Source of the DNA: a virus | Virus record (IMG/VR): IMGVR_UViG_3300047678_000346 | Span: 1 to 39,631 of that record | Reading direction: 5' to 3' (one strand) | DNA length: 39,631 bases | Part shown: positions 2,845-38,891 of the stretch, piece by piece | How the letters are laid out: every line of letters begins with the position of its first letter | Numbering within the stretch: the stretch's first letter is position 1 | Position numbers and translations under genes: made by a program | Notes under the pieces: generated by a model | What the model was told of the DNA's origin: nothing | What the model saw: only the letters and a program-made list of their open reading frames with translations | Databases searched by the model: none

Positions 2845-3680
2845 ACCAGTTGACCCGCTAGCGCCCACTCGATGGCCTTGCGATATTCGAGTGCGGGGCT
2901 GGTAGGGCACGTTTTGACCTTGCAGCCTGAAACCTCCAGCAAACGACTCTCCGCCACGTCTATTAGGTCGAGCGCCCCGTTGCGGAACAACTCGACGTCC
3001 TCGTTCAGTTCGATGCCGATCGCGTTGCGCCCTTCAAGGGCCGCAGCGACCAAAAAGCTCCCCGAACCAAATGCGTTGTCGAGAATGACGTCGCCCGGCT
3101 CGGTATATGTGCGGATGAGATAGCGACCCAGCCCAACCGGTTTTTGGGTCGCGTGATAGACCGGTCCTTCGCTCTCGGCGGTCTTGTGGTAGATCACGTC
3201 CGTTGGATAGCGCCCCCCGGCGCTCTTGATATGGGCAGGTCGGAACTCGCCGTAGGAGCCGGTCAGCTGGTCTTTACGGACGCCTTTGTCGTAGGCAGCC
3301 CCGTCGCCCATCTGCGGCTGATACTTCGGTTGGCGCGGATAGAAAACGCAAACGTCCTCATGCTTGCGAAGCGGCTGCTTTTTGGCGTTCAGGAAGTTGG
3401 TCGGCTTGGATTTTTCCCAGACCAGCTTGTATTTGAACCACGCCTCATTCGAAAGCATTAGCCGGGCCGTGAACGGCCCTTGCGCGGTGAGGACGACTGC
3501 GCCCTGCGGTGCCAGGATGCGCTCATACTGCTCCCAGAGGCCGTCCAGTGGAATAACGCTATCCCAGCTATTCTGCGTGGTGCCATAGGGCAGATCGCAG
3601 AGTATCATATTGACGGTGGCGTCCGGAATCGCCCTCATGGCGGTGAGGCAATCAGCCTGAATGAGTGAAACTCTTGGCAT
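2838..3680 (-). CDS. DNA methyltransferase (adenine-N6 or cytosine-N4, beta-type motif order)
   Basis: 280-aa S-adenosylmethionine-dependent DNA methyltransferase. The catalytic motif comes first (DLPYGTT, residues 29-35, a variant of DPPY). The linker motif HATQKPVGL (176-184) and the AdoMet-binding motif DNAFGSGSF (201-209) follow, then GIELNED. This order marks a beta-group amino-methyltransferase. The base modified cannot be told from sequence alone. It faces the truncated restriction-like ORF and would be an orphan methyltransferase, able to protect phage DNA from host restriction or stabilise the transposon. It is read from near the right transposon end, with a start at the ATG ending at 3680. 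Confidence 0.92.
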   Translation of the reverse strand: MPRVSLIQADCLTAMRAIPDATVNMILCDLPYGTTQNSWDSVIPLDGLWEQYERILAPQGAVVLTAQGPFTARLMLSNEAWFKYKLVWEKSKPTNFLNAKKQPLRKHEDVCVFYPRQPKYQPQMGDGAAYDKGVRKDQLTGSYGEFRPAHIKSAGGRYPTDVIYHKTAESEGPVYHATQKPVGLGRYLIRTYTEPGDVILDNAFGSGSFLVAAALEGRNAIGIELNEDVELFRNGALDLIDVAESRLLEVSGCKVKTCPTSPALEYRKAIEWALAGQLVH

Positions 3681-23676: not shown

Positions 23677-24905
23677 TGGACTGTCTCCGCAGGAGCGCCA
23701 ACCGGGTTGGCCGCTTCGGTGATCGGCATGTTCTGCATCTGCATGCGCGGCACATCGCCGCCTTCGACCGGCGGCAGATTTTCCAGACCGCGAACCTCGT
23801 TGATCGTCATCCAGCCATTCTGAAGCGCCGAGGCGTAGAAGGTCGATCGCGCGCCGCTGTCGGCGCGCAACAGACCCTCGATATTGAACTCGATCGTGAC
23901 GCCGCCCTGCCGTTCGACCTCGCTGAGCAGCTGCTGCTCCAGCGCCTGCTCGATCCTCTTCAACCGGCGCCGCAGCGTGAATTTCTGGAAGCCGAGCGTT
24001 TGTTGCTCCAGCCCGGTGCCCCAACTTGTGGCCTTGTCGGTCTGACCGATCATGTGCGGCGGTACACCGAATACGCGGCAGATTTCTTCGACCGAAAATC
24101 GCCGGGACTCCAGCATCTGCGCGTCGATCGGATTGATCGTCAGTTGCGCCCATTGCATGTCGCGATCGAGCAGCATCGGCCGCCCGTCATTGACGGCGCC
24201 GACGAACTTGCTCTGGAGCAGTTCTTCCATCTCGTTGCGCTGCGCGCTGTTCAGCGTCTCCTTGGTACTCAGCACCCCGCTGGGCCGCGCACCATTTCCG
24301 AACACAGATCCGGCGGCGCGTTCGGTCGCGATCGCCGACCCGAACGCTTGACGACACACGGCCAATGTCGACACCCCGCCGAGTGGGCCGCCGCCAAATC
24401 CCCGGATATGCAGCACCCGCGCCTGGGTTGCGATCGTCATCGATCCACAGGCGGTCCAGCTATACTCGATATCGCCATTCGACAGACGCCGGGTCTGAAC
24501 AAGATCCGGCCTGATCGGCGTCAGTGAGACCAGCCTGCCGCCGCCCGCAAACTCCATTTCGGCATAAGCGTTGCCATCGAGCTCCAGGGCCGCCGCAATA
24601 TATTCGAGAAAGTCGACCGCGGTCTGATCGAAATTGGGGCGATCGTGCAGAATGCGATAGAGCGGGTGATCCTTGGCCACCGACCGCTCGCCGTTCACCG
24701 TTCGATACACCATCAGCGGCAGACTGCCGATCGTCCCGGCAAGCAGGTTAACACACGCCCAGGTCGCCGAAATCCCGAGCGCCGTTGACTGCGTGACGAC
24801 TTCGCCGCTGTAGCTCGGCGATGCGCCGATCGATCGCACGAGGCGAATGTCTTGCAGGCCCATGGCACGAACGATGACGGCGGCGGCCTTTTGCATGATA
24901 TTCAT
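23673..24905 (-). CDS. Portal protein, HK97 type
   Basis: 410 aa from ATG 24905, overlapping the terminase stop by ATGA; a longer form from 24926 is possible. Typical portal features are TALGISATWACVNLLAGTIGSLPLMVYR, HPLYRILHDRPNFDQTAVDFLEYIAAALELDGNAYAE and FGVPPHMIGQTDKATSWGTGLEQQTLGFQKFTL. It forms the dodecameric DNA channel at one capsid vertex and docks the terminase. Confidence 0.94.
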   Translation of the reverse strand: MNIMQKAAAVIVRAMGLQDIRLVRSIGASPSYSGEVVTQSTALGISATWACVNLLAGTIGSLPLMVYRTVNGERSVAKDHPLYRILHDRPNFDQTAVDFLEYIAAALELDGNAYAEMEFAGGGRLVSLTPIRPDLVQTRRLSNGDIEYSWTACGSMTIATQARVLHIRGFGGGPLGGVSTLAVCRQAFGSAIATERAAGSVFGNGARPSGVLSTKETLNSAQRNEMEELLQSKFVGAVNDGRPMLLDRDMQWAQLTINPIDAQMLESRRFSVEEICRVFGVPPHMIGQTDKATSWGTGLEQQTLGFQKFTLRRRLKRIEQALEQQLLSEVERQGGVTIEFNIEGLLRADSGARSTFYASALQNGWMTINEVRGLENLPPVEGGDVPRMQMQNMPITEAANPVGAPAETVQ

Positions 24906-26620
24906 CCGCGCAGGCTCTCGATCCACTCGTCAATTGACGGGCCCTTCGACGCTGGGTTGCGGCTCATCAGAATGACGGCATTGAAGGCGGCGATCAGCGG
25001 ATCGATCTTCGCCTTACCTGCAGCCTGCTTCGTGATCAGCACGGCATTTCCTCTCTGCTCGACCTTCGCGTTGCCGACACACCAGCTCATCAGCCCCTGA
25101 CCGGCATGCCAGAGGGTCCCGTCCTTCAATTTTCGTTCGGCGCCCCAGACCGCCGACGTCAGCCTGAACCCCTGCGCCACCGCTACGAGCTGCTCGTCCG
25201 CGATCCCCCGCGATGCCAGTTCCTCGACCAGCGGCACAATCCCATGCGGATCGAGGCCGATGGCACCCATCGCCGGGAGCACCCCGGCCTCTTTCAGCCG
25301 GACGATGATGTCCGCCACGCCGCGCAAATCCGCCGTCGGATCCGCGCAGCGCGTGAGCGAACCCTCGGCGATGAAGTCCTCGAGCCGACCGACGATCTCC
25401 TTGCGCCGGGCAAACACATCCTCGTGCGCCCAGGCGTGGCACCACAGCAGCCAGTCACGCGTCGTTCGGCACCGGCCGAGCACCGCCAGGCCGAGCAGAT
25501 CGTCCAGTCCACCGCCATCCACACCGACGACGGCGACGTCGCACCGCTCGATCAGCGCCTCGAGCGTGATCGTTTGGTCCGCCGCATCGGGCCAGTAATC
25601 GGTGCCGACCCAGCGGTCCGTGTGGAGCGCCAAACCGATCTGCACGTTCAGATGCTGCGACGCCCAGCGGCGCTCTTCCTCTTCGCCCTTTTCCCGTGCG
25701 GTTCCGAACTCGCTGACCAGGCGATCGATCGTGATCGACTTGCCGAGATTGGGCAGCACCATCTTCCAGTTCTTCGGGTCTCGCCAAGGCTTGTCGGGCG
25801 CCACCTGCATGGCTTCGGGGAACTCGTAGAGGAGCGGCAGCATGCACACGTTGGTGATGATGCGCCCGTCGCGCACGCTGCGCGCATAATCCAGTTCGGT
25901 TTTGAACGCGCCCGCCGGTGCCTGGTCCGACTGGGTCGAGATCATCACCATGAACGCCTCAGGATTCGCGATCATGCCCCCGCGCAGCTGGCCGATCACC
26001 CGCCCGGCATCCGCCATAGATGCCATCAGGTGGACCTCGTCCAGCAGGATACCCGCAGGCTTCGATCCAGTCGCGACCTTCATGTCGAAGGTCTTGATCT
26101 TCAATTTGGCTTCGGTGACCCGATCGCGGATCGTCTTGATATGCTCCGAAACCAGAAAGCGCTTTCGCAGAAACTCGTCGGCGTCGATCATGCCTGCGGC
26201 CTGCTGGAAGGCCGTGTCCGCAACCTCCTGCGTCGGCCCGACCAGAACAAACTCGGCGCGCGGCCGCTGATTCATCAGCAGCGCGGTCAGCATGATCGCC
26301 GCGCCGCCGGTGGTCTTGGCATTTTTCTTCGGCACCAGCGCGAATATCTCGCGCACGTGACGCATACCGTCCTCGTCGAGCGATCCGAAGATCGCGCGCA
26401 CGACGTCGCGCTGCCACTCTCCCGCCGCCTCGCCCAGCGTGGGCTGGCCAGGGACGTCGGGCAGCCGCAGCCGATTGAAGATCGCGACTGCCCGCGCCGC
26501 CTCGGCCTCGTTGATCGAGGCGAACGGGACCAGCGATTGCCCTTTGGTCAGACGCTCCACCCAGTCCGGGCAGGCGAAGGACGCGATCAATGCGTGGTCG
26601 GACCCAGCAGTCCGCCCCAT
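24902..26620 (-). CDS. terL: Terminase large subunit
   Basis: 572 aa packaging motor and nuclease. The ATPase domain has a Walker A variant VPKKNAKTT (96-104) and Walker B ILLDEVHL (191-198). The RNase H-like nuclease begins at VVGVDGGGLDD, where the first Asp binds metal. It overlaps the small subunit gene by 34 bp. Its kind (with HK97-type portal, protease and capsid, and an HNH gene upstream) suggests cos-type packaging, but this is inference. Confidence 0.94.
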   Translation of the reverse strand: MGRTAGSDHALIASFACPDWVERLTKGQSLVPFASINEAEAARAVAIFNRLRLPDVPGQPTLGEAAGEWQRDVVRAIFGSLDEDGMRHVREIFALVPKKNAKTTGGAAIMLTALLMNQRPRAEFVLVGPTQEVADTAFQQAAGMIDADEFLRKRFLVSEHIKTIRDRVTEAKLKIKTFDMKVATGSKPAGILLDEVHLMASMADAGRVIGQLRGGMIANPEAFMVMISTQSDQAPAGAFKTELDYARSVRDGRIITNVCMLPLLYEFPEAMQVAPDKPWRDPKNWKMVLPNLGKSITIDRLVSEFGTAREKGEEEERRWASQHLNVQIGLALHTDRWVGTDYWPDAADQTITLEALIERCDVAVVGVDGGGLDDLLGLAVLGRCRTTRDWLLWCHAWAHEDVFARRKEIVGRLEDFIAEGSLTRCADPTADLRGVADIIVRLKEAGVLPAMGAIGLDPHGIVPLVEELASRGIADEQLVAVAQGFRLTSAVWGAERKLKDGTLWHAGQGLMSWCVGNAKVEQRGNAVLITKQAAGKAKIDPLIAAFNAVILMSRNPASKGPSIDEWIESLRG

Positions 26621-27045
26621 TCACCTTCACCCGAAGCCGAGCGCGCGTCGACGACGGCCTGCTCTTTTTTGCCGAGCTTTGGCTTGCGATCCTGTTTCAC
26701 TATCCGCTGTGGCACCGCCAGGTCGTGCCGGTCGAGGCGCTTGAACAGCTTGTCGATCGCCGTGACGTTGCCCTTGTCGACCTCGGCGAGGAGCGCCGCA
26801 AAGAGCTTGCCTTCCAGGCGTTGGCGCGCCTCGAGCCGCGAGCGCAGCTCGCGAAAATAATGCTTCCGCAAAGTCGGCGGCGTGATCGACAGCGCGGCGG
26901 CGATCTGTTGTTCGTTCTTGTCGAAGGCCGCTAACACCATGACTTTACGGCGATTTTCGGACGTCGGGATGTGCGCTGGGCGACCACGACGGCCAAGCCC
27001 CTCCGGGATCGGATCGCCCAGCAGGTCCAAATCCCAGTCACTCAC
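26587..27045 (-). CDS. terS: Terminase small subunit
   Basis: 152 aa. The start is GTG 27045, preceded by GGAGG and a run of eight T's, an unusual homopolymer spacer between ribosome binding site and start. A DNA-binding helix-turn-helix lies about 32-64 (KVMVLAAFDKNEQQIAAALSITPPTLRKHYFREL), followed by a helical oligomerisation region (LFAALLAEVDKGNVTAIDKLFKRLDRHDLA). It recognises the packaging start site and recruits the large subunit. Confidence 0.88.
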   Translation of the reverse strand: MSDWDLDLLGDPIPEGLGRRGRPAHIPTSENRRKVMVLAAFDKNEQQIAAALSITPPTLRKHYFRELRSRLEARQRLEGKLFAALLAEVDKGNVTAIDKLFKRLDRHDLAVPQRIVKQDRKPKLGKKEQAVVDARSASGEGEWGGLLGPTTH

Positions 27046-27622: not shown

Positions 27623-27642
27623 AATTCGCATCAGTGCGAATT
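27623..27642 (-). terminator. Intrinsic terminator of the early operon
   Basis: AATTCGCA (27623-27630) and TGCGAATT (27635-27642) pair perfectly across a 4-base loop. On the minus strand the hairpin is followed directly by TTTTTC. The stop codon of the last early gene lies inside it. It separates early and late transcription on the same strand, and would be the site where late gene control or antitermination acts. Confidence 0.8.
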
Positions 27643-28101
27643 ACTCACCTTGACAGGTTGCTCATAGGATTTCCGCCGATTTAACGAGTGGGCGATCAGA
27701 CTGATCCCACGCGAAAAGCGCTTGCGCAGCGCATCTGGCGATCCATCCCACGCCATCGGCGCGCGAAGATCGGCCCAGTCGACATGCGCCTGCCCGGTCG
27801 AGAGCCGCGCCAGCGCCAGGCCGATCAGCTTGCGATCGCCGGGCCGGATCAGGTCGAGCCAGCCCAGCGCCTCGTTCATCCGGTCAACCTCGCTGGCCCG
27901 CAGGCCGAGCCGCACCGGCGCATCCTCCTCATAGCGCCCGATCCGCTCCGGCACCGTCTGCGTCCACGGGCCGTCCTTGGCGTGCAGCCGCATCCAGGCC
28001 GCCTCGCGGTCGGGCATCCGCCGCAGCAACGACCATGCTTCGACCAACCGCTCGATCACCAGATCGAAGCTCCATGCCGCCTCTGTCACAACCCTGTTCA
28101 T
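27631..28101 (-). CDS. DUF6362-like protein, last gene of the early operon
   Basis: 156 aa. It is helical, with DREAAWMRLHAKDGPWTQTVPERIGRYE and a C-terminal part resembling an HTH (MAWDGSPDALRKRFSRGISLIAHSLNRR). It resembles the DUF6362 proteins of alphaproteobacterial phages (family name from memory). Its place at the early/late boundary, before the terminator and late operon, makes a late transcription activator an attractive but unproven idea. The start ATG 28101 has AAAGAAAGAG upstream. Confidence 0.65.
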   Translation of the reverse strand: MNRVVTEAAWSFDLVIERLVEAWSLLRRMPDREAAWMRLHAKDGPWTQTVPERIGRYEEDAPVRLGLRASEVDRMNEALGWLDLIRPGDRKLIGLALARLSTGQAHVDWADLRAPMAWDGSPDALRKRFSRGISLIAHSLNRRKSYEQPVKVSNSH

Positions 28102-28212
28102 TCTCTTTCTTTACCTATTTTAGTTAAAAGGAGGGTTACGGACGGTTAGTAGTGTTGACCTACGCACACACACACAGGCGCACTAGCTCTCGACTGGCAA
28201 TCAACTCTCCGG

Positions 28213-28401
28213 ACTGTCCGGACTGTCCGTAAACGGCTGATCTGCGTGCTTCGCGCTACGGACAGTTTACGGACAGTCGGAGGGTTTCAGAGCCATAGAG
28301 CGCGCATTTTTGCACTTGACGAATGACCCCGATTTTGCATCCGAAACGCCGCGCGGCGAAAGCACGGACGGTTCGGCCAAACTGTCCGTAAACTGTCCGT
28401 A
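28213..28401. repeat. Six ACTGTCCG boxes with an inverted pair of 21-bp iterons; possible replication origin or regulator site
   Basis: The 8-mer ACTGTCCG occurs directly at 28213-28220 and 28222-28229, inverted at 28259-28266 and 28270-28277, and directly again at 28381-28388 and 28392-28399. The blocks 28257-28277 and 28381-28401 are exact 21-bp inverted copies, each with two boxes 11 bp apart (one helical turn). This is the main non-coding gap of the early operon (28102-28424), between the helicase and DUF6362 genes. The rest of the gap shows a short CA run (about 28163-28173) and nothing else clear. Confidence 0.75.
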
Positions 28402-28424
28402 TGCGGCGCATACCGCGCCGGGGC

Positions 28425-29972
28425 TCAAAGCGGCCGATCATCGTCGTCATCCTTCCACACGTCGCCCGCCAGCGGTAGCGACCCGACCGCGCGCAGCTGC
28501 GCCCCGCGACGCCGCACCCGGCCGCCGCCATCTTTCGGGCCTTTCAGTATCTGCCGGTCGCCGAGCGCGCGCCCGAACGCCGTCTGCCCCATCACCTCGC
28601 GGTCCGATGCGCCATTGGCCTCGCACCATCGCTTGTAATCGTCGAACAGATCGGCGGCGGCGGTCAGCACATTGGGATCGCTGGTATCGACCCGCTCGGC
28701 CATCCATTCGCCGAACGGATTGGCCGCGCGCCGGTAATCCTCGATCGCCTCGGCCACCTGGCGCGGCGGGTCGAGCCGACCGCGCGTCAGCCAGCGCTTG
28801 AGCCCTTCCAGGCACCAGTTGAGGATGCCGCTGAACTCGGGCCGCAACCGATCCTTGATCGTCTTGTCGATCGCGTCGCCCTTGAACTGGTGCTGGAACA
28901 GCACGATCAGGATGCGCCGCCAGATCCCGTCGTCATCGCCAGAGATGCGCGGCCGACTGTTGCATTCCATGATCAGCAGCCCACGCGGCACATATTCGAA
29001 CGGCGCGCCGTGCAGCATGCGCACCGTGATTGCGCTGCCGCCGGTGAATTGTTTGACCCGCGATTCGTCGATCGCCTGCCCGCGCTTGGGCTCGTCCAGC
29101 GACACGAAGCGCACGTCGCCGGCGAGCCGCGCCAGGTCCGGGGTGGCGTCCCCGCCGGAGCGCATCGCCCCGGCGAGGAAAGTCTGAACATCGGCCTTGA
29201 CCGCATAGCCGCCCATCATCTCGCGGATCATGTCCATTGCCGTCGATTTGCCGTCGCCGCCCTTGCCCTGGAGCATCACCATCGCCTGTTCGGTGCGGAT
29301 GCCGGTCAAAGCATAGCCGCATATCTCCTGCACGAAACCACGCACCCCCGGATCGGGCAGCACGGTCTCCATATGTCGCTCGAAAGCGGGGCATACCGCC
29401 CCGGGGTCATAGTCGCAGGCCAGCGCGCGCGTCATCAGGTCGCCGGGGTCGTGCGCCCGCGACTCGACTTTCCAGCCCATGGGCGACTTGCGCAGCCGGA
29501 TCGTGCCGTTTCCCGCATTGATCGCCAGCAGGTCGGCGTCGAAGCGCTCGCGCGGCACCGTCAACAGGTGCGCGCCCTGGGCGAGCATCGCGTGCGTTTT
29601 TGCGGCCATGCCGCTGGTCACCGCCCATTTGCGCAGGTCGAGGATGCGGTTCTTGCGCACCTCGGCCGAGCACCAGGGGCCGAAGCGTTTGGCCAGGTCG
29701 GCGTCCGCGATCTCGCCCAGCGCCGCGATCTCGCCGCGGATCGATCGCGCCACGTCATGCGCCGCGATCGAGGCGAGCCGCGCCCCTTCCTCGACTGACC
29801 AGCGCACCCCGTCATAGGCCACCCAGCCCCACTCGGCCACATAGGCCAGCGTGCCACCATAGCGCGCCGCGAGGCGTTCGGCATTGCCGATATCGTTCAT
29901 TTCCTTCCACGCCAGCGCGATCGGGTCGATCGTCGCGATCGCCGTCGTGGCCGCATCGCCCCTCAATTCCAT
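28425..29972 (-). CDS. Phage/plasmid primase-helicase, P4 type (superfamily 3 helicase)
   Basis: 515 aa from ATG 29972; a GTG lies one codon upstream. The N-terminal half is the D5/P4-associated domain (LAYVAEWGWVAYDGVRW, LLAINAGNGTIRL). Then comes the SF3 helicase with Walker A GKGGDGKST (about 237-245), Walker B region VRFVSLDEPKRG and sensor motif IMECNSRPRI. The C-terminal winged helix includes LFDDYKRWCEANG. It unwinds DNA at the phage origin. It carries no primase zinc finger itself; a separate primase is encoded two genes upstream. Confidence 0.92.
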   Translation of the reverse strand: MELRGDAATTAIATIDPIALAWKEMNDIGNAERLAARYGGTLAYVAEWGWVAYDGVRWSVEEGARLASIAAHDVARSIRGEIAALGEIADADLAKRFGPWCSAEVRKNRILDLRKWAVTSGMAAKTHAMLAQGAHLLTVPRERFDADLLAINAGNGTIRLRKSPMGWKVESRAHDPGDLMTRALACDYDPGAVCPAFERHMETVLPDPGVRGFVQEICGYALTGIRTEQAMVMLQGKGGDGKSTAMDMIREMMGGYAVKADVQTFLAGAMRSGGDATPDLARLAGDVRFVSLDEPKRGQAIDESRVKQFTGGSAITVRMLHGAPFEYVPRGLLIMECNSRPRISGDDDGIWRRILIVLFQHQFKGDAIDKTIKDRLRPEFSGILNWCLEGLKRWLTRGRLDPPRQVAEAIEDYRRAANPFGEWMAERVDTSDPNVLTAAADLFDDYKRWCEANGASDREVMGQTAFGRALGDRQILKGPKDGGGRVRRRGAQLRAVGSLPLAGDVWKDDDDDRPL

Positions 29973-29979
29973 CACAGCC

Positions 29980-30621
29980 TCAATGCACGCGGTTCGATAT
30001 GGCCCAGCCCAGCGCCTCGGCCAGCTGGAGATCCTTTGCGCTCGCCTTCCTGGCTGGTGCCGGCGATGCCCCCGCCGCCGCCGCCGTCGCCGCGATCAGC
30101 CCGGCATCGCGCGCCTGGTCGAGCAGCGGATCGAGCCCGCCCCCGCCCGCGCCGACGATCTGGCCGTAGAGCGCAACCAGCGCGTCCAGAGTGTCCCAGT
30201 CCTTGTCCGGATCGGCGCGCCGCTTGATGATCGCCTGAATCGCCTCGACATTATAGCCCGCGCCCTTGGCCTCGCCGCGCAGCTCGGCCAGCATGGCGCT
30301 GATCTCCTTGCGCTCCTCGATCAGCCGCTCCATCCGCTCGACATAGCTGCGCAGCTGCTCGGCCGCGTGCGATCGCCGCGCCGGGCGATCGGCGTCGCGG
30401 GCTGGCGGCACATCAATCACCCGGTCGGGCAGTGCCTCGGCGCTGGGCGACGGATCGACCGTGATGACCTCGATCCCGCGATCACGCTCGCGCGGTTCGT
30501 CGGTCACCGCCTTCGCGCGCGCGCGATCCGTCACGACCGACGAGGAAGACCGATCATATTTGCCCTCGTTTGCATTCCACGGACGATCACCCATCGCAGG
30601 TGGCCCGCACGTCAGCCGCAT
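29980..30621 (-). CDS. GapR-like DUF2312 domain protein with extended ends
   Basis: 213 aa. Residues 86-137 (AEQLRSYVERMERLIEERKEISAMLAEL then AKGAGYNVEAIQAIIKRR) match the DUF2312/GapR coiled-coil DNA-binding domain. Host GapR is about 90 aa, binds overtwisted DNA ahead of replication forks and stimulates topoisomerases. Here it has an 85-residue polar N-terminal extension and an Ala-rich tail. It lies between primase and helicase, so it probably helps phage replication or packages phage DNA. Confidence 0.85.
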   Translation of the reverse strand: MRLTCGPPAMGDRPWNANEGKYDRSSSSVVTDRARAKAVTDEPRERDRGIEVITVDPSPSAEALPDRVIDVPPARDADRPARRSHAAEQLRSYVERMERLIEERKEISAMLAELRGEAKGAGYNVEAIQAIIKRRADPDKDWDTLDALVALYGQIVGAGGGGLDPLLDQARDAGLIAATAAAAGASPAPARKASAKDLQLAEALGWAISNRVH

Positions 30622-30633
30622 TGGTGTTGTCGG

Positions 30634-32028
30634 TCATTGGTCAGTTGCTTCGATCCTGGCGAGGGTGTCGTTGAAATCCATCGTCACCGGCGGTCGGATC
30701 GCCTTGACCGACGTCGCCCCCGCGTGCCGCCAGTGTTGGCAGGCGATCGATCCGCACAGCGCAGCGCGTTCGAGCGCGCCCAGCATCCTCTTGCCGCGCA
30801 CCGCCCCGCGCACCGCCTGCACCAGGCGCTCGATCGGCTTCATGTCCGCATCGACCAGGATGATCACCGCGCCCGGCTCGGGCAGCACGAATGGCGGCCG
30901 TTGCAAATCCGCCATCGGTGACCACAGCTTGATCGCCCCCATCGCATCGCGCCCGATCCCGCCTTGCAGATTGTCCAGGCTCAGCGTCGCCGCCGCTCGC
31001 ACCGGCACGCCGCGCCTGAAATAGCCCTGGGCCACGGACCACACTGTCTCGATCCCCTCGCCGACCAGCAGCGGCCGGTCGCGGGCCGCGTGCGGCAATC
31101 CCGCAAGCCACACCGCATGGCCGCTCACCGGGCCCCACATTTTCCGCGTCGGCCGGGGCGTCCCGTCCGGATAGGCGGGCAGCGACGCCTTCGCCCGCCC
31201 GTCCGCCGCCAGATAGGTCGCATGCACCCCGCGCACATGCCCGTCGGCGTCGCGCATCGGCGCGATCATCGCTGGCAGGGTCAGCCGCCCGCTCCCGGCT
31301 GCGTCATGCGCGGCCCAGGGCGCGTGTACCGCGCGCGGGTGGAAACGCAGCCCGTCAAGCCCCTCGGGCAGCGCCTGCGGATCAAGCGCGCGCGCTCGCA
31401 GCCAGGCCTCGATGATTTCGCCGCGCGCCGGGACAGACGTCTGCCACAGCCACCGACCGACCGTCGCCGACGTCACCAGCTCCGGCGCGTCACGGCGCGG
31501 TGGCCCCGGGCGCTCGACCGGCGGCGCCGCGACCCGCGCCTCGACGGCCAGCAACCCGCCGCTGTCGAGCCGCCGCACCGCCTCGCGGAAATCGACCCCC
31601 TCGGTCTGCATGACGAACTCGATCGCATCGCCATGCGCCCCGCAGCCGAAGCAATGATAATAGCCCTTTTCGTTCGACACCGTGAAGCTCGGTGTCTTTT
31701 CGTTATGGAACGGGCAGAGACCGCCAAACGCCCGCCCGGTGCGGCGCAGCTTCACTCGTCGCGCGACCAGCTGCTCGAGCGAGACGCGCGCGCGTATCTC
31801 CTCGAGCCTGTCAGCACCGATCCGGGCCCACCCGGCGCGGCGGCGCAACTGCTCGATCTCCAGCGACGATCCACGCGCCTCCAGCGCGGAGACGAACAGG
31901 CTCTTCCAGTGATAGGCGGTGGTGAATGGCACGCCGAGATCGGCGGCGGCGCGATAGACCGACAGCCCCGCGATCAGCTTTTGCTCGAACGCGCGCCGCT
32001 GTTCGAGCAGCGCCGCTTTCGCGCCCAT
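30634..32028 (-). CDS. DNA primase (CHC2 zinc finger plus Toprim)
   Basis: 464 aa from ATG 32028, overlapping the ParB-like stop by one base (TGATG). A short HTH (about 20-45, GLSVYRAAADLGVPFTTAYHW) is followed by the CHC2 zinc finger with CPFH (105-108) and CFGC (126-129), and by a Toprim-like domain (RPLLVGEGIETVWSV, GAVIILVDADMK), where the Glu and the DxD bind metal. It makes RNA primers for phage replication. The upstream HTH is unusual for stand-alone primases. Confidence 0.9.
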   Translation of the reverse strand: MGAKAALLEQRRAFEQKLIAGLSVYRAAADLGVPFTTAYHWKSLFVSALEARGSSLEIEQLRRRAGWARIGADRLEEIRARVSLEQLVARRVKLRRTGRAFGGLCPFHNEKTPSFTVSNEKGYYHCFGCGAHGDAIEFVMQTEGVDFREAVRRLDSGGLLAVEARVAAPPVERPGPPRRDAPELVTSATVGRWLWQTSVPARGEIIEAWLRARALDPQALPEGLDGLRFHPRAVHAPWAAHDAAGSGRLTLPAMIAPMRDADGHVRGVHATYLAADGRAKASLPAYPDGTPRPTRKMWGPVSGHAVWLAGLPHAARDRPLLVGEGIETVWSVAQGYFRRGVPVRAAATLSLDNLQGGIGRDAMGAIKLWSPMADLQRPPFVLPEPGAVIILVDADMKPIERLVQAVRGAVRGKRMLGALERAALCGSIACQHWRHAGATSVKAIRPPVTMDFNDTLARIEATDQ

Positions 32029-34112
32029 CACGCCGCCTCCGCCGCTGCGCCAGGCACCATGTCGGCCTCGGCCTCCGCGCCGACCCCGAAGCTCAGATAG
32101 GGCGGCACCCAGCTTTTCGCCCGCTCGGCCAGCTTCCAGGCCTGCTCCGGCGACACGATCTTGGTCAGCAGCGCCCGGTCGCCCTCGCCGAAGATCGCCG
32201 CGCACCGGGCGGTCAGGCCGTCATTGTCCAGCTTCTGCGAATCGCGGGCGATCGCCGGGTCGAGCGCGTCCAGCGCCGCGAGCCGGTGCTTCCTGGGCAG
32301 GTTCGCCCAATAGGCCGCATCGGGCGTCCAATAGGTGCGGACCGCCGCGTCGGTCAGCCCGATATGCGCGGCCAGCGCATCATGCACCGCGCTGGCATGA
32401 CCCGGCGCAGCGAGCGACCGCGCCAGGATCAGCCCGGCCGCATAGCGCATCCACTGAAAGCGCGCCTCGCCCGGCAGCGCCACGAACTGCCGATAGCCAT
32501 CCGCCGCGTCGTCCGTATCGATCCAGCTGCGATCGAGTGCGCCGAGCAACGTGTCGACGATGCAGTGGGCGGGCTGCGCGATCAGCTCGGCATGATCCGC
32601 CAGCGCCTGGTCGGTCACCACCGCGCCGGCCATCCCGCTGCGCTTGGCCAGCCCCAGGCCAACGACCGCGCGCACGATCGCGAAGGTCAGATAGTCGCCC
32701 GCCCAAACCGGCCCGGCCAGCACAGCGGCCTGCAGGATATTGCGGCGGTGCGCGCTCATCAGCTCGATCCCGGTCTTGCTGAGGCCATGATCGCGCTTGA
32801 TCGCCGCCTCGGACGAAATATGGCTCTCCCTGGGCGTCGGTGCGCCCGCCGTCGCAGCCGCCTCGAACTCGGTCGGATTGTCCGGCGACCAGTCCGCCGG
32901 CACATGCCGCACCGCATGAGCATCGATCATGAACCGGCCCGTCCGCTCGTCGAGGCGTGGCCGCGCGATCAGCTTGCCGTCGACCGCTGGAAAGGTGAAA
33001 CCGCTCTCGGTATCCTCGATCGTCTCGATCGCGTCGTCGATATCGTTGAGCTGGTCATCGAGCGCTGACGCCTTGCCCTCGTCCTCCGCGTTGAGCAGAT
33101 CGCCCTCCGCGTCGCAAAGCGCATCCAGCGCCGCGCGGATCTCGGCGGCCCTGGCCTTCAAAGCCTCGACCCTGGCCAGCGCCTCGCCGGTCAAGGGCTC
33201 GCGCTCGGCCGCTACATAGCTGCCGACGCCATAGGCGATCGGCTCGTCGACCAGCTCGATCTGCGGCAAGGCGTCGCGCAGCCTCTCGAACGCCTGGGCC
33301 TTCCGCTCGGCGAACAGCCGCGCCAATATGTCAGGATCCAGCACCCGCGCCCGATCCATATCGTCGAACAGGTCGATCTCGATCCGACCGCCCGCCGCCT
33401 CATAGCGTTCCCTTCCGACCGCGCGCAGCTGCACATTGAGCGTATGGCTGTCCTTCCCCGCGATCAGGCCGTTGATATTGTGTGGATAGCGCGACCGGGA
33501 CGGGATCTGCTGATAGGCCGCCCACGCCTTGGCCTGCAGAGCCTGGTCGGCGGTGGCGGCGAAATTGCGTGCCTCCTCCTCCTTCAGCGCCCCGCTCTCG
33601 AACGCCGCGAGCAGGTCGGGGTGCAGATTGCCCAGCCGCAGCAGCTGCCCCACCCGCCGCGCCGACACCCCGAAATGCTCGGCGATCGCCGCCTCGCTCG
33701 CGCCGGCATCGGCGAGCCGGGCGAAGGCCGCATATTCCTCGTGCGGCTTCAGCGGCTCGCGCAGGATATTCTCGGCCAGGCTAATCTCGACGATCTCCGC
33801 CGCGTCGCTCTCCGGCCGGACGACCACCGGCACCATGTAATTCTCGCCGATCTTCAGCTCGTTCGCCAGCTCGCGCAGCGCGCGATAGCGCCGACCCCCG
33901 GCGATCACCTGATATTTGGCCTTCGCGCCCTTCGCCCCCTTCGGCGGCGCCGTGACGCTGAGCGGCGCCAGCACCCCGCGCGCCAGGATCGACGCTTTCA
34001 GCCCAGGCAGCGCCGGGTCGGGCCGGTCGCCACGCACATTCGCTTCAGCGACGCACAGCGTCGCCAGCGTTACCGAAGTCTGCTCCGGCACCACCTTGTC
34101 GGTCGCACTCAT
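32028..34112 (-). CDS. ParB/RepB/Spo0J-like protein
   Basis: 694 aa. The N-terminal ParB domain has AGGRRYRALREL (71-82, the CTP-binding GxRRxR patch) and ENILREPLKPHEE (114-126). A helix-turn-helix lies at 138-160 (SEAAIAEHFGVSARRVGQLLRL). The long C-terminus is unlike chromosomal ParB (about 300 aa). Such large versions occur on plasmids and phages of alphaproteobacteria. No ParA is present in the window, so classical partition is doubtful. A role as replication or DNA-loading factor is an alternative. It overlaps both neighbours. Confidence 0.87.
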   Translation of the reverse strand: MSATDKVVPEQTSVTLATLCVAEANVRGDRPDPALPGLKASILARGVLAPLSVTAPPKGAKGAKAKYQVIAGGRRYRALRELANELKIGENYMVPVVVRPESDAAEIVEISLAENILREPLKPHEEYAAFARLADAGASEAAIAEHFGVSARRVGQLLRLGNLHPDLLAAFESGALKEEEARNFAATADQALQAKAWAAYQQIPSRSRYPHNINGLIAGKDSHTLNVQLRAVGRERYEAAGGRIEIDLFDDMDRARVLDPDILARLFAERKAQAFERLRDALPQIELVDEPIAYGVGSYVAAEREPLTGEALARVEALKARAAEIRAALDALCDAEGDLLNAEDEGKASALDDQLNDIDDAIETIEDTESGFTFPAVDGKLIARPRLDERTGRFMIDAHAVRHVPADWSPDNPTEFEAAATAGAPTPRESHISSEAAIKRDHGLSKTGIELMSAHRRNILQAAVLAGPVWAGDYLTFAIVRAVVGLGLAKRSGMAGAVVTDQALADHAELIAQPAHCIVDTLLGALDRSWIDTDDAADGYRQFVALPGEARFQWMRYAAGLILARSLAAPGHASAVHDALAAHIGLTDAAVRTYWTPDAAYWANLPRKHRLAALDALDPAIARDSQKLDNDGLTARCAAIFGEGDRALLTKIVSPEQAWKLAERAKSWVPPYLSFGVGAEAEADMVPGAAAEAA

Positions 34113-37165: not shown

Positions 37166-37327
37166 ATGCTACCCTTTTCCGACCTTCACCCTGCCTGGTG
37201 CCACTGCGCCAGCTGCGAACCCTATATCCCGGCTGATCGGTCGCGTCGCGACCAGGCTCAGCTGCGCTTCCTCGCCGCCGCCGGCCTCGCGCTCGCGATC
37301 GCCGTCACCGCCTGGGTGCTGGCATGA
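37166..37327 (+). CDS. Small Cys-rich tail-anchored membrane protein upstream of cas gene
   Basis: 53 aa from ATG 37166, with GGAGA about 5 bp upstream. The N-terminus has WCHCASC (11-17), a possible metal site. Residues 35-52 form a single membrane segment (FLAAAGLALAIAVTAWVL). Its stop overlaps an ATG of the cas frame (ATGA at 37324-37327). It is the first gene under the operator-controlled promoter, so it may be a partner of the Cas12-like protein, for instance in membrane tethering or host toxicity; this is speculative. Confidence 0.68.
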   Translation: MLPFSDLHPAWCHCASCEPYIPADRSRRDQAQLRFLAAAGLALAIAVTAWVLA

Positions 37328-37374
37328 AAGCAGTGGCTCGGACTGATGATCGAGATCGGCGCCGGAGCGGTGCG

Positions 37375-38643
37375 ATGAATCCGGAACCCGAAGCGCCGCC
37401 CGAAACACTCGTGCGCATGTATAAATATCGGGCCTTCCCGCCCAAATCTGGCCGCGCTGCCTTCGCCCAGGCAATTGCCCTCAAGCGCGCGATGTGGGCC
37501 GATCTGTGCGCCATGCATCCACCCTTCGCCGAGAAAATGGCGGAGGCGCGCAAGGCCAAGGATCAGGACGCGCTGTCTGCCCTCCGCCGCGATCGCACGG
37601 CGGCCATCGCCGACATCCGGCGCGGCTATGCCGAGTGCGGCCTGGCCTGGGGTGATTACAACGCCGTCGTTTTTCAGTTCGAGGGCGCGGTGCGGGCGTC
37701 GGCGGCGCGTGGTGCGATGCCAGCCGCGCATGATGGCGCGCTGGGTGAGGCCGTGGTCCGCCAGCTGATGGGCACCGTGCGACCGCATCACCTGCTGTCG
37801 CGCAACGATGTCTGCATTGAATATCTGGAGCCGAACGAGCGGGAGCGGACGCGCAAGCCGGGGTCGCACCGCTCGAAATGGCGCACCGCGCGCATGGACT
37901 TCTCGATCCGCACGGATCGCAATGTCGAAGGCCCGGCCTCGATGGTGCTGGAGTTCATCCTCCGCCGCCCGCTGCCCGCCAACGCGCGGCTGGTCGAGGT
38001 GCGTATCCTGCGCGAGACACGTCCGATCATCCGCCAGGACGGATCAGCGGGCGAGCGGGAGCAGTGGTATGTGTGCTTTGCGGCGCGGATCGAACGTCCG
38101 CAGCGCGCCGGAGACCGCGCGATCGGCGTGGCGCTCGACTGGTCCGGGGCCGGTGACGATGGCACGCACGCGCTGGTCATCGCCGACGATAGCGGGCGCA
38201 GCCGAGACATAGTGTTCGGCGAGGATCATCTCGCCGCCTGGGCGCGATCGAAAGAGATGTTCGCCGACGCCGACGCTGAACCGGATGCGGCGCTGGCCGC
38301 AGCGAAGCGCAACGAAGCGTTGATCTATCGGCGGCGGTTGGAGGTCGAACGCCGCCTGCGCCACCGGACGCTGGCGGCGCAGATCGCGCGCGACGGCGAT
38401 ATTGTCGGCATCCAGAAAATCTGGTTGGCGGAGAAAGGCGTCAAGAACTTCACCGCGCCCGCCGCCTTCCGGCTCGCACTCAAGCACGCGGTCGAAAATG
38501 CGGGTGGGCGAATTGTCGAGGTGAAGGCCGCGAAAAAGGACTTTGCCGGGTCCGCAAAAAAGCTGGCCCACCACCTCCGCATCGAGGCGAAGGCCGCAAT
38601 TTTGGCCGGGCAGAATGATGACTTTTCAGAGGCCGCAGAATGA
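37375..38643 (+). CDS. Miniature Cas12/TnpB-like CRISPR effector (type V-like), possibly nuclease-dead
   Basis: 422 aa from ATG 37375, which has GGAG seven bases upstream; a 439-aa form from ATG 37324 (ATGA overlap) is possible. The start VRMYKYRAFPPKSGRAAF (13-30) matches the opening of TnpB/Cas12 proteins, followed by a helical region. RuvC-like parts: IGVALDWSG with D255 (motif I), DGDIVGIQKIW where Q347 takes the place of the catalytic Glu (motif II), the helix AAFRLALKHAVENAGGRIVEVKA (363-385), and RIEAKAAIL with E404 in place of Asp (motif III). The zinc ribbon normally between motifs II and III is absent, with no CxxC anywhere. The array begins 15 bp after the stop. No Cas1, Cas2 or Cas4 is nearby. 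It would be among the smallest Cas12-like effectors. The RuvC alignment is by eye. Confidence 0.8.
   Translation: MNPEPEAPPETLVRMYKYRAFPPKSGRAAFAQAIALKRAMWADLCAMHPPFAEKMAEARKAKDQDALSALRRDRTAAIADIRRGYAECGLAWGDYNAVVFQFEGAVRASAARGAMPAAHDGALGEAVVRQLMGTVRPHHLLSRNDVCIEYLEPNERERTRKPGSHRSKWRTARMDFSIRTDRNVEGPASMVLEFILRRPLPANARLVEVRILRETRPIIRQDGSAGEREQWYVCFAARIERPQRAGDRAIGVALDWSGAGDDGTHALVIADDSGRSRDIVFGEDHLAAWARSKEMFADADAEPDAALAAAKRNEALIYRRRLEVERRLRHRTLAAQIARDGDIVGIQKIWLAEKGVKNFTAPAAFRLALKHAVENAGGRIVEVKAAKKDFAGSAKKLAHHLRIEAKAAILAGQNDDFSEAAE
37965..37994 (+). other. Self-protospacer: 30 bp identical to CRISPR spacer 1, inside the cas12-like gene
   Basis: Exact 30/30 match, same strand, to spacer 1 (38695-38724). 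The flanking bases differ from the repeats at once on both sides (G before, C after). It codes for residues 197-207 (RRPLPANARLV), before the RuvC part. The 5' flank is ATCCTCCG and the 3' flank CGAGGTGC, so a C-rich 5' PAM such as CCG would be the candidate if targeting is productive. Confidence 0.96.
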
Positions 38644-38658
38644 CTTGCGATCATATCC

Positions 38659-38891
38659 GTTTCTCTGCGCCTGCGTCGGGGCGATGCCGACACCCCGCCC
38701 GCTGCCCGCCAACGCGCGGCTGGTGTTTCTCTGCGCCTGCGTCGGGGCGATGCCGACACCTCCCGGCGACCCGGCGACCTCCGAATTCTGTTTCTCTGCG
38801 CCTGCGTCGGGGCGACGCCGACACCCTGCCGGCCGGCAGGCTGACTGGACTGTGGGTTTCTCTGCGCCTGCGTCGGGGCGATGCCGACACC
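38659..38891 (+). CRISPR. CRISPR array: four 36-bp repeats, three spacers (30, 29, 30 bp)
   Basis: Repeats at 38659-38694, 38725-38760, 38790-38825 and 38856-38891. All are identical except for one T-to-C change at repeat position 27 in the third. The repeat starts GTTTCTCTGCGCC and ends in a stem-loop, GTCGG (17-21) pairing with CCGAC (29-33), followed by ACC; the variant base is in the loop. A 3' stem directly before the spacer, on the strand of the effector gene, fits type V crRNA handles. Spacers: 38695-38724 (identical to 37965-37994), 38761-38789 and 38826-38855 (no match in the window). No separate promoter is seen, so co-transcription with the effector gene is likely. No anti-repeat for a tracrRNA was found. 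Confidence 0.95.

Follow-up and report, generated by a model that had tools for sequence, protein, structure and literature searches.

In the 39,631-bp stretch of viral DNA that we analysed (referred to as the window), an array of nine short boxes at about positions 28136–28405 is most probably the phage replication origin, bound and melted by the P4-family helicase encoded next to it (we put the probability at roughly 0.85). This assignment draws on the conservation of the array, on its location immediately past the 3′ end of the helicase gene, on covariation between box letters and the winged helix of the helicase, and on precedent. In principle, the array is very probably an iteron origin of the SaPI/PICI kind, with a longer and ordered layout, in tailed phages. 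A previous sequence-only reading of this DNA had proposed three possible roles for a smaller feature at 28213–28401, namely an origin for the SF3 helicase, a binding site for a ParB-like protein, or an operator for the late switch, and the lines of evidence listed above argue well for the first of these.

The array lies in a 323-bp intergenic gap (28102–28424) between the helicase gene and a DUF6362-like gene, and begins 25 bp past the helicase stop codon. Six exact copies of ACTGTCCG were found at 28213 and 28222 (+ strand), 28259 and 28270 (− strand), and 28381 and 28392 (+ strand), with adjacent same-strand copies spaced by 9 or 11 bp. These six boxes had been described before, as had an exact inverted pair of 21-bp blocks with two boxes each, and both descriptions were confirmed: the blocks at 28257–28277 (− strand; boxes 28259–28266 and 28270–28277) and at 28381–28401 (+ strand; boxes 28381–28388 and 28392–28399, the first pair past the helicase stop) are 100% complementary, with 103 nt between them. 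The extent originally given for the feature held only as a core, since allowing one mismatch revealed extra boxes at 28139, 28204 and 28365, for a total of nine non-overlapping boxes (28139–28399). Read in the sense of the helicase gene, the order is >> (28392, 28381), < (28365), a spacer, << (28270, 28259), >>> (28222, 28213, 28204), a second spacer, and < (28139). The single opposed box at 28365–28372 (− strand, CGGACGGT, one mismatch) has a counterpart at the matching place in the close relatives L085–L090 and L092. Three tandem boxes with 9-bp spacing, the one at 28204 with one mismatch, form the cluster at 28204–28229 (+ strand), and the outer opposed box (28139–28146, − strand, one mismatch) occupies a position where relatives often have two boxes. 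Like SaPI/PICI rep-ori regions, the array contains two or more sets of short iterons. Between the triple and the outer boxes, at 28160–28183, we also observed a mostly alternating stretch (GTGCGC...GCATGCGCGA-like) that recurs in close relatives at the same place.

The box word is clearly over-represented, with eight copies of ACTGTCCG in the window compared with 1.15 expected and a maximum of four in 100 shuffles. When tandem pairs of the word (8–12 bp apart, one mismatch allowed) were searched, all five pairs in the whole window fell at 28204–28399, one of them being an overlapping opposite-strand reading; among 200 words permuted from the same letters, the mean was 0.23 pairs and the maximum three. 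With every tandem pair confined to the array, the word is not the mark of paired operators scattered along the DNA. Generic box counts alone do not make the array unique, as 3 of 221 other 350-bp intervals also reach nine; these rival intervals carry GC-rich words such as GGCGCTGC.

The strongest AT-rich stretch of the region, and a candidate strand-opening site, is found at 28080–28149 (50-bp GC 0.34–0.36, within the lowest 0.1–0.2% of the genome). The DUF6362 gene starts within this stretch, which may be no more than the leader of that gene. The spacer at 28280–28349 is less extreme (50-bp GC 0.52, 6th percentile). That the most AT-rich stretch sits at the outer end instead of separating the main clusters counts against the origin assignment. 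GC skew showed no turn at the array. In a folding comparison with 200 shuffled sequences the array strand scored better (z −3.8), which would fit a pRN1-like stem-loop origin, where the long inverted repeat acts as a folded strand and not through its boxes. Such an origin has precedent in pRN1 and in the proposal made for phage BIP-1, both 3′ of a replication gene according to the excerpted text of PMC4234260. However, the inverted boxes themselves account for most of the fold, it is the order and the word of the boxes that recur in relatives, and iterons are present here whereas the same excerpts describe pRN1 as lacking them. We therefore regard a stem-loop origin as very improbable.

The proposed origin-binding initiator is encoded at 28425–29975 (− strand). 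It matches the TIGR01613 family ('phage/plasmid primase, P4 family') with 215 bits (cut-off 108.7, E 1e-63) and D5_N with 70.7 bits (cut-off 22.4, E 2e-19). Its predicted model (mean pLDDT 86.5) aligns with the SaPI5 primase-helicase (7ola; Z 29.7, rmsd 5.0, 398 residues aligned), and also with the ASFV PrimPol (Z 30.1) and poxvirus D5 (Z about 28), in support of a P4/D5-family SF3 helicase. The C-terminal region, at about residues 430–492 (28500–28688, − strand), is predicted to form a winged helix with a recognition helix at 464–473 and wing strands at 477–481 and 487–490. A primase with a DnaG-type zinc finger is encoded by a neighbouring gene (30634–32205).

Single-sequence searches with the helicase returned no relatives in viral_contigs or genome_contigs, and the exact 21-mer had no match in viral_contigs. 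Phages Pan4, JY02, JY03 and JY10 were reached through relatives of the large terminase (TerL; 58–60% identity). In the first three, the primase/helicase gene is followed by a gap packed with boxes in opposing orientations that have a different word (GGGAAGAT/GGGAGGAT). No primase/helicase is annotated at this place in JY10 or Labrenzia phage V1, and the parts of these two that were searched showed no array of the kind. A helicase-alignment search then provided 80 viral loci (the best 80 of 575), in which a helicase beside the array is given by the search design. For each locus we compared the count of the most repeated 8-mer in the 350 bp past the helicase stop with that in the other intervals of the locus. 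Among the 80 regions tested (79 viral loci plus the window, L094 being too short), the post-helicase region was strictly the most box-rich in 48, the window not being one of these; it fell within the top 5% in 61 regions, of which the window is one (loci again from the best 80 of 575). A second search also gave 80 loci, 36 of them on contigs present in the first scan; in 29 of the 44 further loci the region had strictly the highest count, and in 33 it ranked among the top 5%. A clear array was absent in several relatives (e.g., L095, L130, L138, L143 and L158, and L177 and L202 of the further set). When ten named phage records were scored in the same way, the region was strictly highest in phi105, JY02, JY03, Lactobacillus phage AB1 and Methanoculleus virus L4768. 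It came close to the top in Pan4 (reached by 3 of 207 other intervals) and Ruthiejr (1 of 48). EV3 showed a weak array (8 of 39), in Liebe it did not stand out (4 of 48), and RR1-A had none.

In seven close relatives (L085–L090 and L092), the boxes run >> < <<<, followed by two or three > and finally <<, with near-identical spacing. Five of the seven open with the full 11-box run, of which the window lacks two boxes. A more distant group tends towards >>> > << >>> <<, with variations. The DNA between boxes is poorly conserved among close relatives. Across 60 loci, same-orientation neighbours were most frequently 9 bp apart (131 cases), followed by 8 bp (46), 10 bp (40) and 11 bp (37). The box word itself changes from phage to phage (CGGACAGT, CAGACAGT, CGGCGGGT, CAGACCAT, CGGACGAT, CGGAGGAT and others), whereas the copies inside one phage mostly share their spelling, bases 7 and 8 being loose in some. 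A word that varies between phages and is largely uniform within each is what would be expected of a common trans-acting reader. Conservation of the boxes in related phages, which the sequence-only reading had named as a check, holds for the presence of a similar array past the helicase gene in most of them and not for its spelling.

We next asked which helicase residues change together with the box letters, scoring 406 helicase columns in 31 close relatives. In this first set, the boxes of L099, L102 and L108 were assigned by eye, and L094 and L095 (no box) as well as the distant loci were excluded. Residue 465, predicted to start the recognition helix, was the best of the 406 columns in tracking bases 6 and 7, and residue 482, in the predicted turn between the wing strands, was the best for base 2. 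Of the relatives with A at base 7, 5 of 5 had lysine at 465, compared with 0 of the 26 others. This rule was fixed before a hold-out of 31 loci was analysed (44 loci minus nine with the motif outside the box frame and four near-identical ones), in which the box frame was set with a pattern derived from the first set. It held in 6 of 7 loci against 0 of 24 (Fisher p 9.5e-6), the exception being L230, with Asn at 465; pooling both sets gives 11 of 12 against 0 of 50. On the helicase-core tree, there were four independent pairs differing at base 7, in which residue 465 agreed in three, disagreed in none and was unchanged in one; with only four such pairs, a sign test cannot reach significance. 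The corresponding rule for residue 482 and base 2 fitted the first set (7 of 8 against 4 of 23) and was not borne out in the hold-out, where N/S482 gave 2 of 6 against 3 of 25 (p 0.24).

The ten best columns as a group were not significantly concentrated in the winged helix (top-10 hypergeometric p 0.12–0.36), and rank tests of the winged-helix columns gave p 0.019 for base 2, 0.055 for base 6, 0.77 for base 7 and 0.008 for the whole word. As a control, we used the primase of the 27 phages with a primase match, whose best columns reached z 4.8, 3.6 and 5.9 for bases 2, 6 and 7; in the same 27 phages, the helicase reached 6.3 (residue 490), 7.4 (residue 465) and 8.9 (residue 465). The case for a link between boxes and the predicted winged helix is thus carried by the top-ranked columns and the hold-out.

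We searched for homologues of the neighbouring genes in the flanks (up to 5 kb) of the 80 loci, the best of 575, by tblastn at E 1e-4, a search that misses distant or diverged copies. The primase was found in 52 of 80 loci, the DUF6362-like protein in 13, GapR in 6 and ParB in 1, and the terminase subunits TerS and TerL in 19 and 22. In the window, genes for a ParB-like protein (32028–34112) and a GapR-like protein (29980–30621) lie close to the array on the same strand, which would suit a partition or nucleoid site read by one of them. Against this, most of the loci have the array, and ParB and GapR homologues appear in the flanks of so few. We consider a partition site extremely unlikely, and the ParB binding site put forward by the sequence-only reading is not upheld. 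Repeats near terminase genes are known packaging sites, and here a TerL gene (24902–26620, identified by Pfam) and a gene taken as TerS by position (26587–27045) follow in the same direction, so that the array might be a pac or cos site for recognition by the small terminase, whose gene lies some 1.1 kb downstream. However, the array stays with the helicase gene while terminase homologues were found in the flanks of a minority of loci, and the box letters track the helicase. Accordingly, we give a packaging site next to no credence.

The gene directly behind the array (27631–28101, − strand) encodes a DUF6362-like protein (24.8 bits, below the Pfam cut-off of 31), a family for which no paper was found in the literature searched and whose member here is not likely to be the box binder. 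The closest structure to its predicted model (mean pLDDT 82.1) is the phage 21 antitermination factor Q21 (a middling Z of 7.4, rmsd 4.5, 113 residues aligned), followed by sigma region 4 domains, similarities of a size that is possible without kinship. Because the predicted fold is nearest to these proteins, the unnamed family may be a late-gene regulator. In other phages, the next gene downstream encodes a NusG-family protein in 11 of 45 cases and a DUF6362 protein in 8 of 45 (Pfam, E 0.001), and the one NusG-family protein tested (L104) was RfaH-like. These data, together with the outer box lying 37 bp before the DUF6362 start codon, would suit a role of the boxes as a late-switch operator only, through which the DUF6362 protein or another phage regulator controls the downstream gene. 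Several observations speak against it. The array type is kept while the next gene switches family, so that a late-switch operator, the third role in the sequence-only reading, is unsupported as the main role. In addition, the letters of the boxes vary with the helicase, an operator with nine to eleven boxes across 270 bp would in our judgement be unusual, no tandem boxes occur elsewhere in the genome, and no sigma-70-type promoter consensus was found in the gap, in which promoter and terminator scans were uninformative. We consider a pure operator improbable. The late regulator directly behind the origin may be a coincidence of gene order, or the outer boxes may double as an operator.

The replication-origin assignment has parallels in several known systems. 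The origins of PICIs lie immediately 3′ of rep (excerpts of PMC6092414), and SaPI Rep and Cch2 bind iterons directly 3′ of their own genes (excerpts of PMC7581432). The arrangement in the window resembles these SaPI/PICI rep-ori regions, as far as the excerpts describe them, in having sets of short iterons and an origin immediately 3′ of the initiator helicase gene, and the SaPI5 initiator is a D5/P4-type helicase like that of the window. It differs in that the window derives from a tailed phage, with 9–11 boxes in four clusters of recurring order, and in that its strongest AT-rich stretch occupies the outer end instead of lying between two sets of iterons. Cch2 of SCC elements is likewise a D5_N-family helicase, and its isolated C-terminal domain binds the iterons, which are downstream direct repeats (excerpts of PMC7581432). 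These consist of three 5-nt iterons only, according to the same excerpts, whereas the window array is different and much longer. The alpha protein of phage P4, also of the TIGR01613 family, is said in the excerpted PMC4234260 to bind the repeats of the P4 origin through its winged helix; in the window, unlike in P4, the primase is a separate gene. That source also describes the essential origin of pRN1 as a stem-loop 3′ of its SF3-helicase/winged-helix replication gene, without iterons. For phage BIP-1 it reports a stem-loop origin proposed 3′ of the replication gene, with repeats that the authors judged not to be origin-like iterons; an origin 3′ of such a gene has thus already been suggested for a phage. 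We found no description of an iteron layout of this kind in tailed phages in a search that covered titles and the starts of abstracts, most subscription journals lying outside it.

By analogy with these systems, the C-terminal winged helix of the helicase would bind boxes of roughly 9 bp (ACGGACAGT), and the helicase would load on the oppositely oriented box clusters, presumably as two rings. Once loaded, it would open the DNA, with the AT-rich stretch at 28080–28149 as the candidate opening site, and the neighbouring primase would then start synthesis. Binding, melting and replication start at the array are thus all proposed from sequence and analogy. What is new here, at the level of sequence comparison, is the breadth and ordering of the arrays, together with a first piece of a putative box-to-residue code. 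The arrays suggest that a comparable origin layout is common in tailed phages with P4-family helicases, including phi105, and searching for them is a means of locating origins in phage genomes that lack annotation. The varying box words and winged helices also provide a data set towards the recognition code of self-loading initiator helicases. A more speculative and, in our opinion, unlikely extension is that the array serves as both origin and late switch, with the helicase bound at the outer boxes also governing the antiterminator-like gene directly behind the origin, and with the box letters set by a winged-helix code in which Lys465 specifies A at base 7. If the dual role were true, origin firing would clear the way for the late genes; if the Lys465 code were true, it could be used to assign helicases to the origins they serve among P4-family phages.

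Additional observations were made outside the helicase-based comparison. A search with the pattern ACTGTCCGNANACTGTCCG returned 16 viral and 59 genome stretches, and tblastn of 11 window proteins against these 75 (E 1e-3) matched only L023, through a DUF6362 homologue. The box surroundings were examined in seven of the 75 stretches (L021, L023, L024, L026, L056, L060 and L084), of which L056 and L060 look like chance matches. In L023, the box word of the window stands at 53–200, directly before the DUF6362 gene; the contig ends upstream, which leaves the helicase gene out of view. In L026 (a Cypionkella MAG), an array of boxes of about 11 bp, of the CGGACAGTTTG and CGGATGGTTTT type and in both orientations, is found at about 186–580, 3′ of the gene for a 1080-aa prim-pol-domain protein, and is strictly the most box-rich part of that locus. 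In L084 (Sphingomonas beigongshangi), the box word of the window occurs at 2900–3660 beside a 160-aa ORF, with no window-type helicase in the 8 kb examined. This ORF had the look of an isolated winged helix, an identity that hhalign did not back (probability 3.4%, E 0.013). The ORF next to it appears capsid-like, and the locus is possibly a prophage remnant.

Finally, at 38659–38891 the window contains four copies of a 36-nt repeat, three identical and one with a single change, in a CRISPR-like arrangement with 65–66-bp spacing. Directly before them lies an ORF of 439 aa (37324–38643, + strand) with no match in NCBIfam or among PDB sequences and an insignificant one in Pfam. Together, the repeats and this ORF possibly represent a phage mini-CRISPR with a small single effector.
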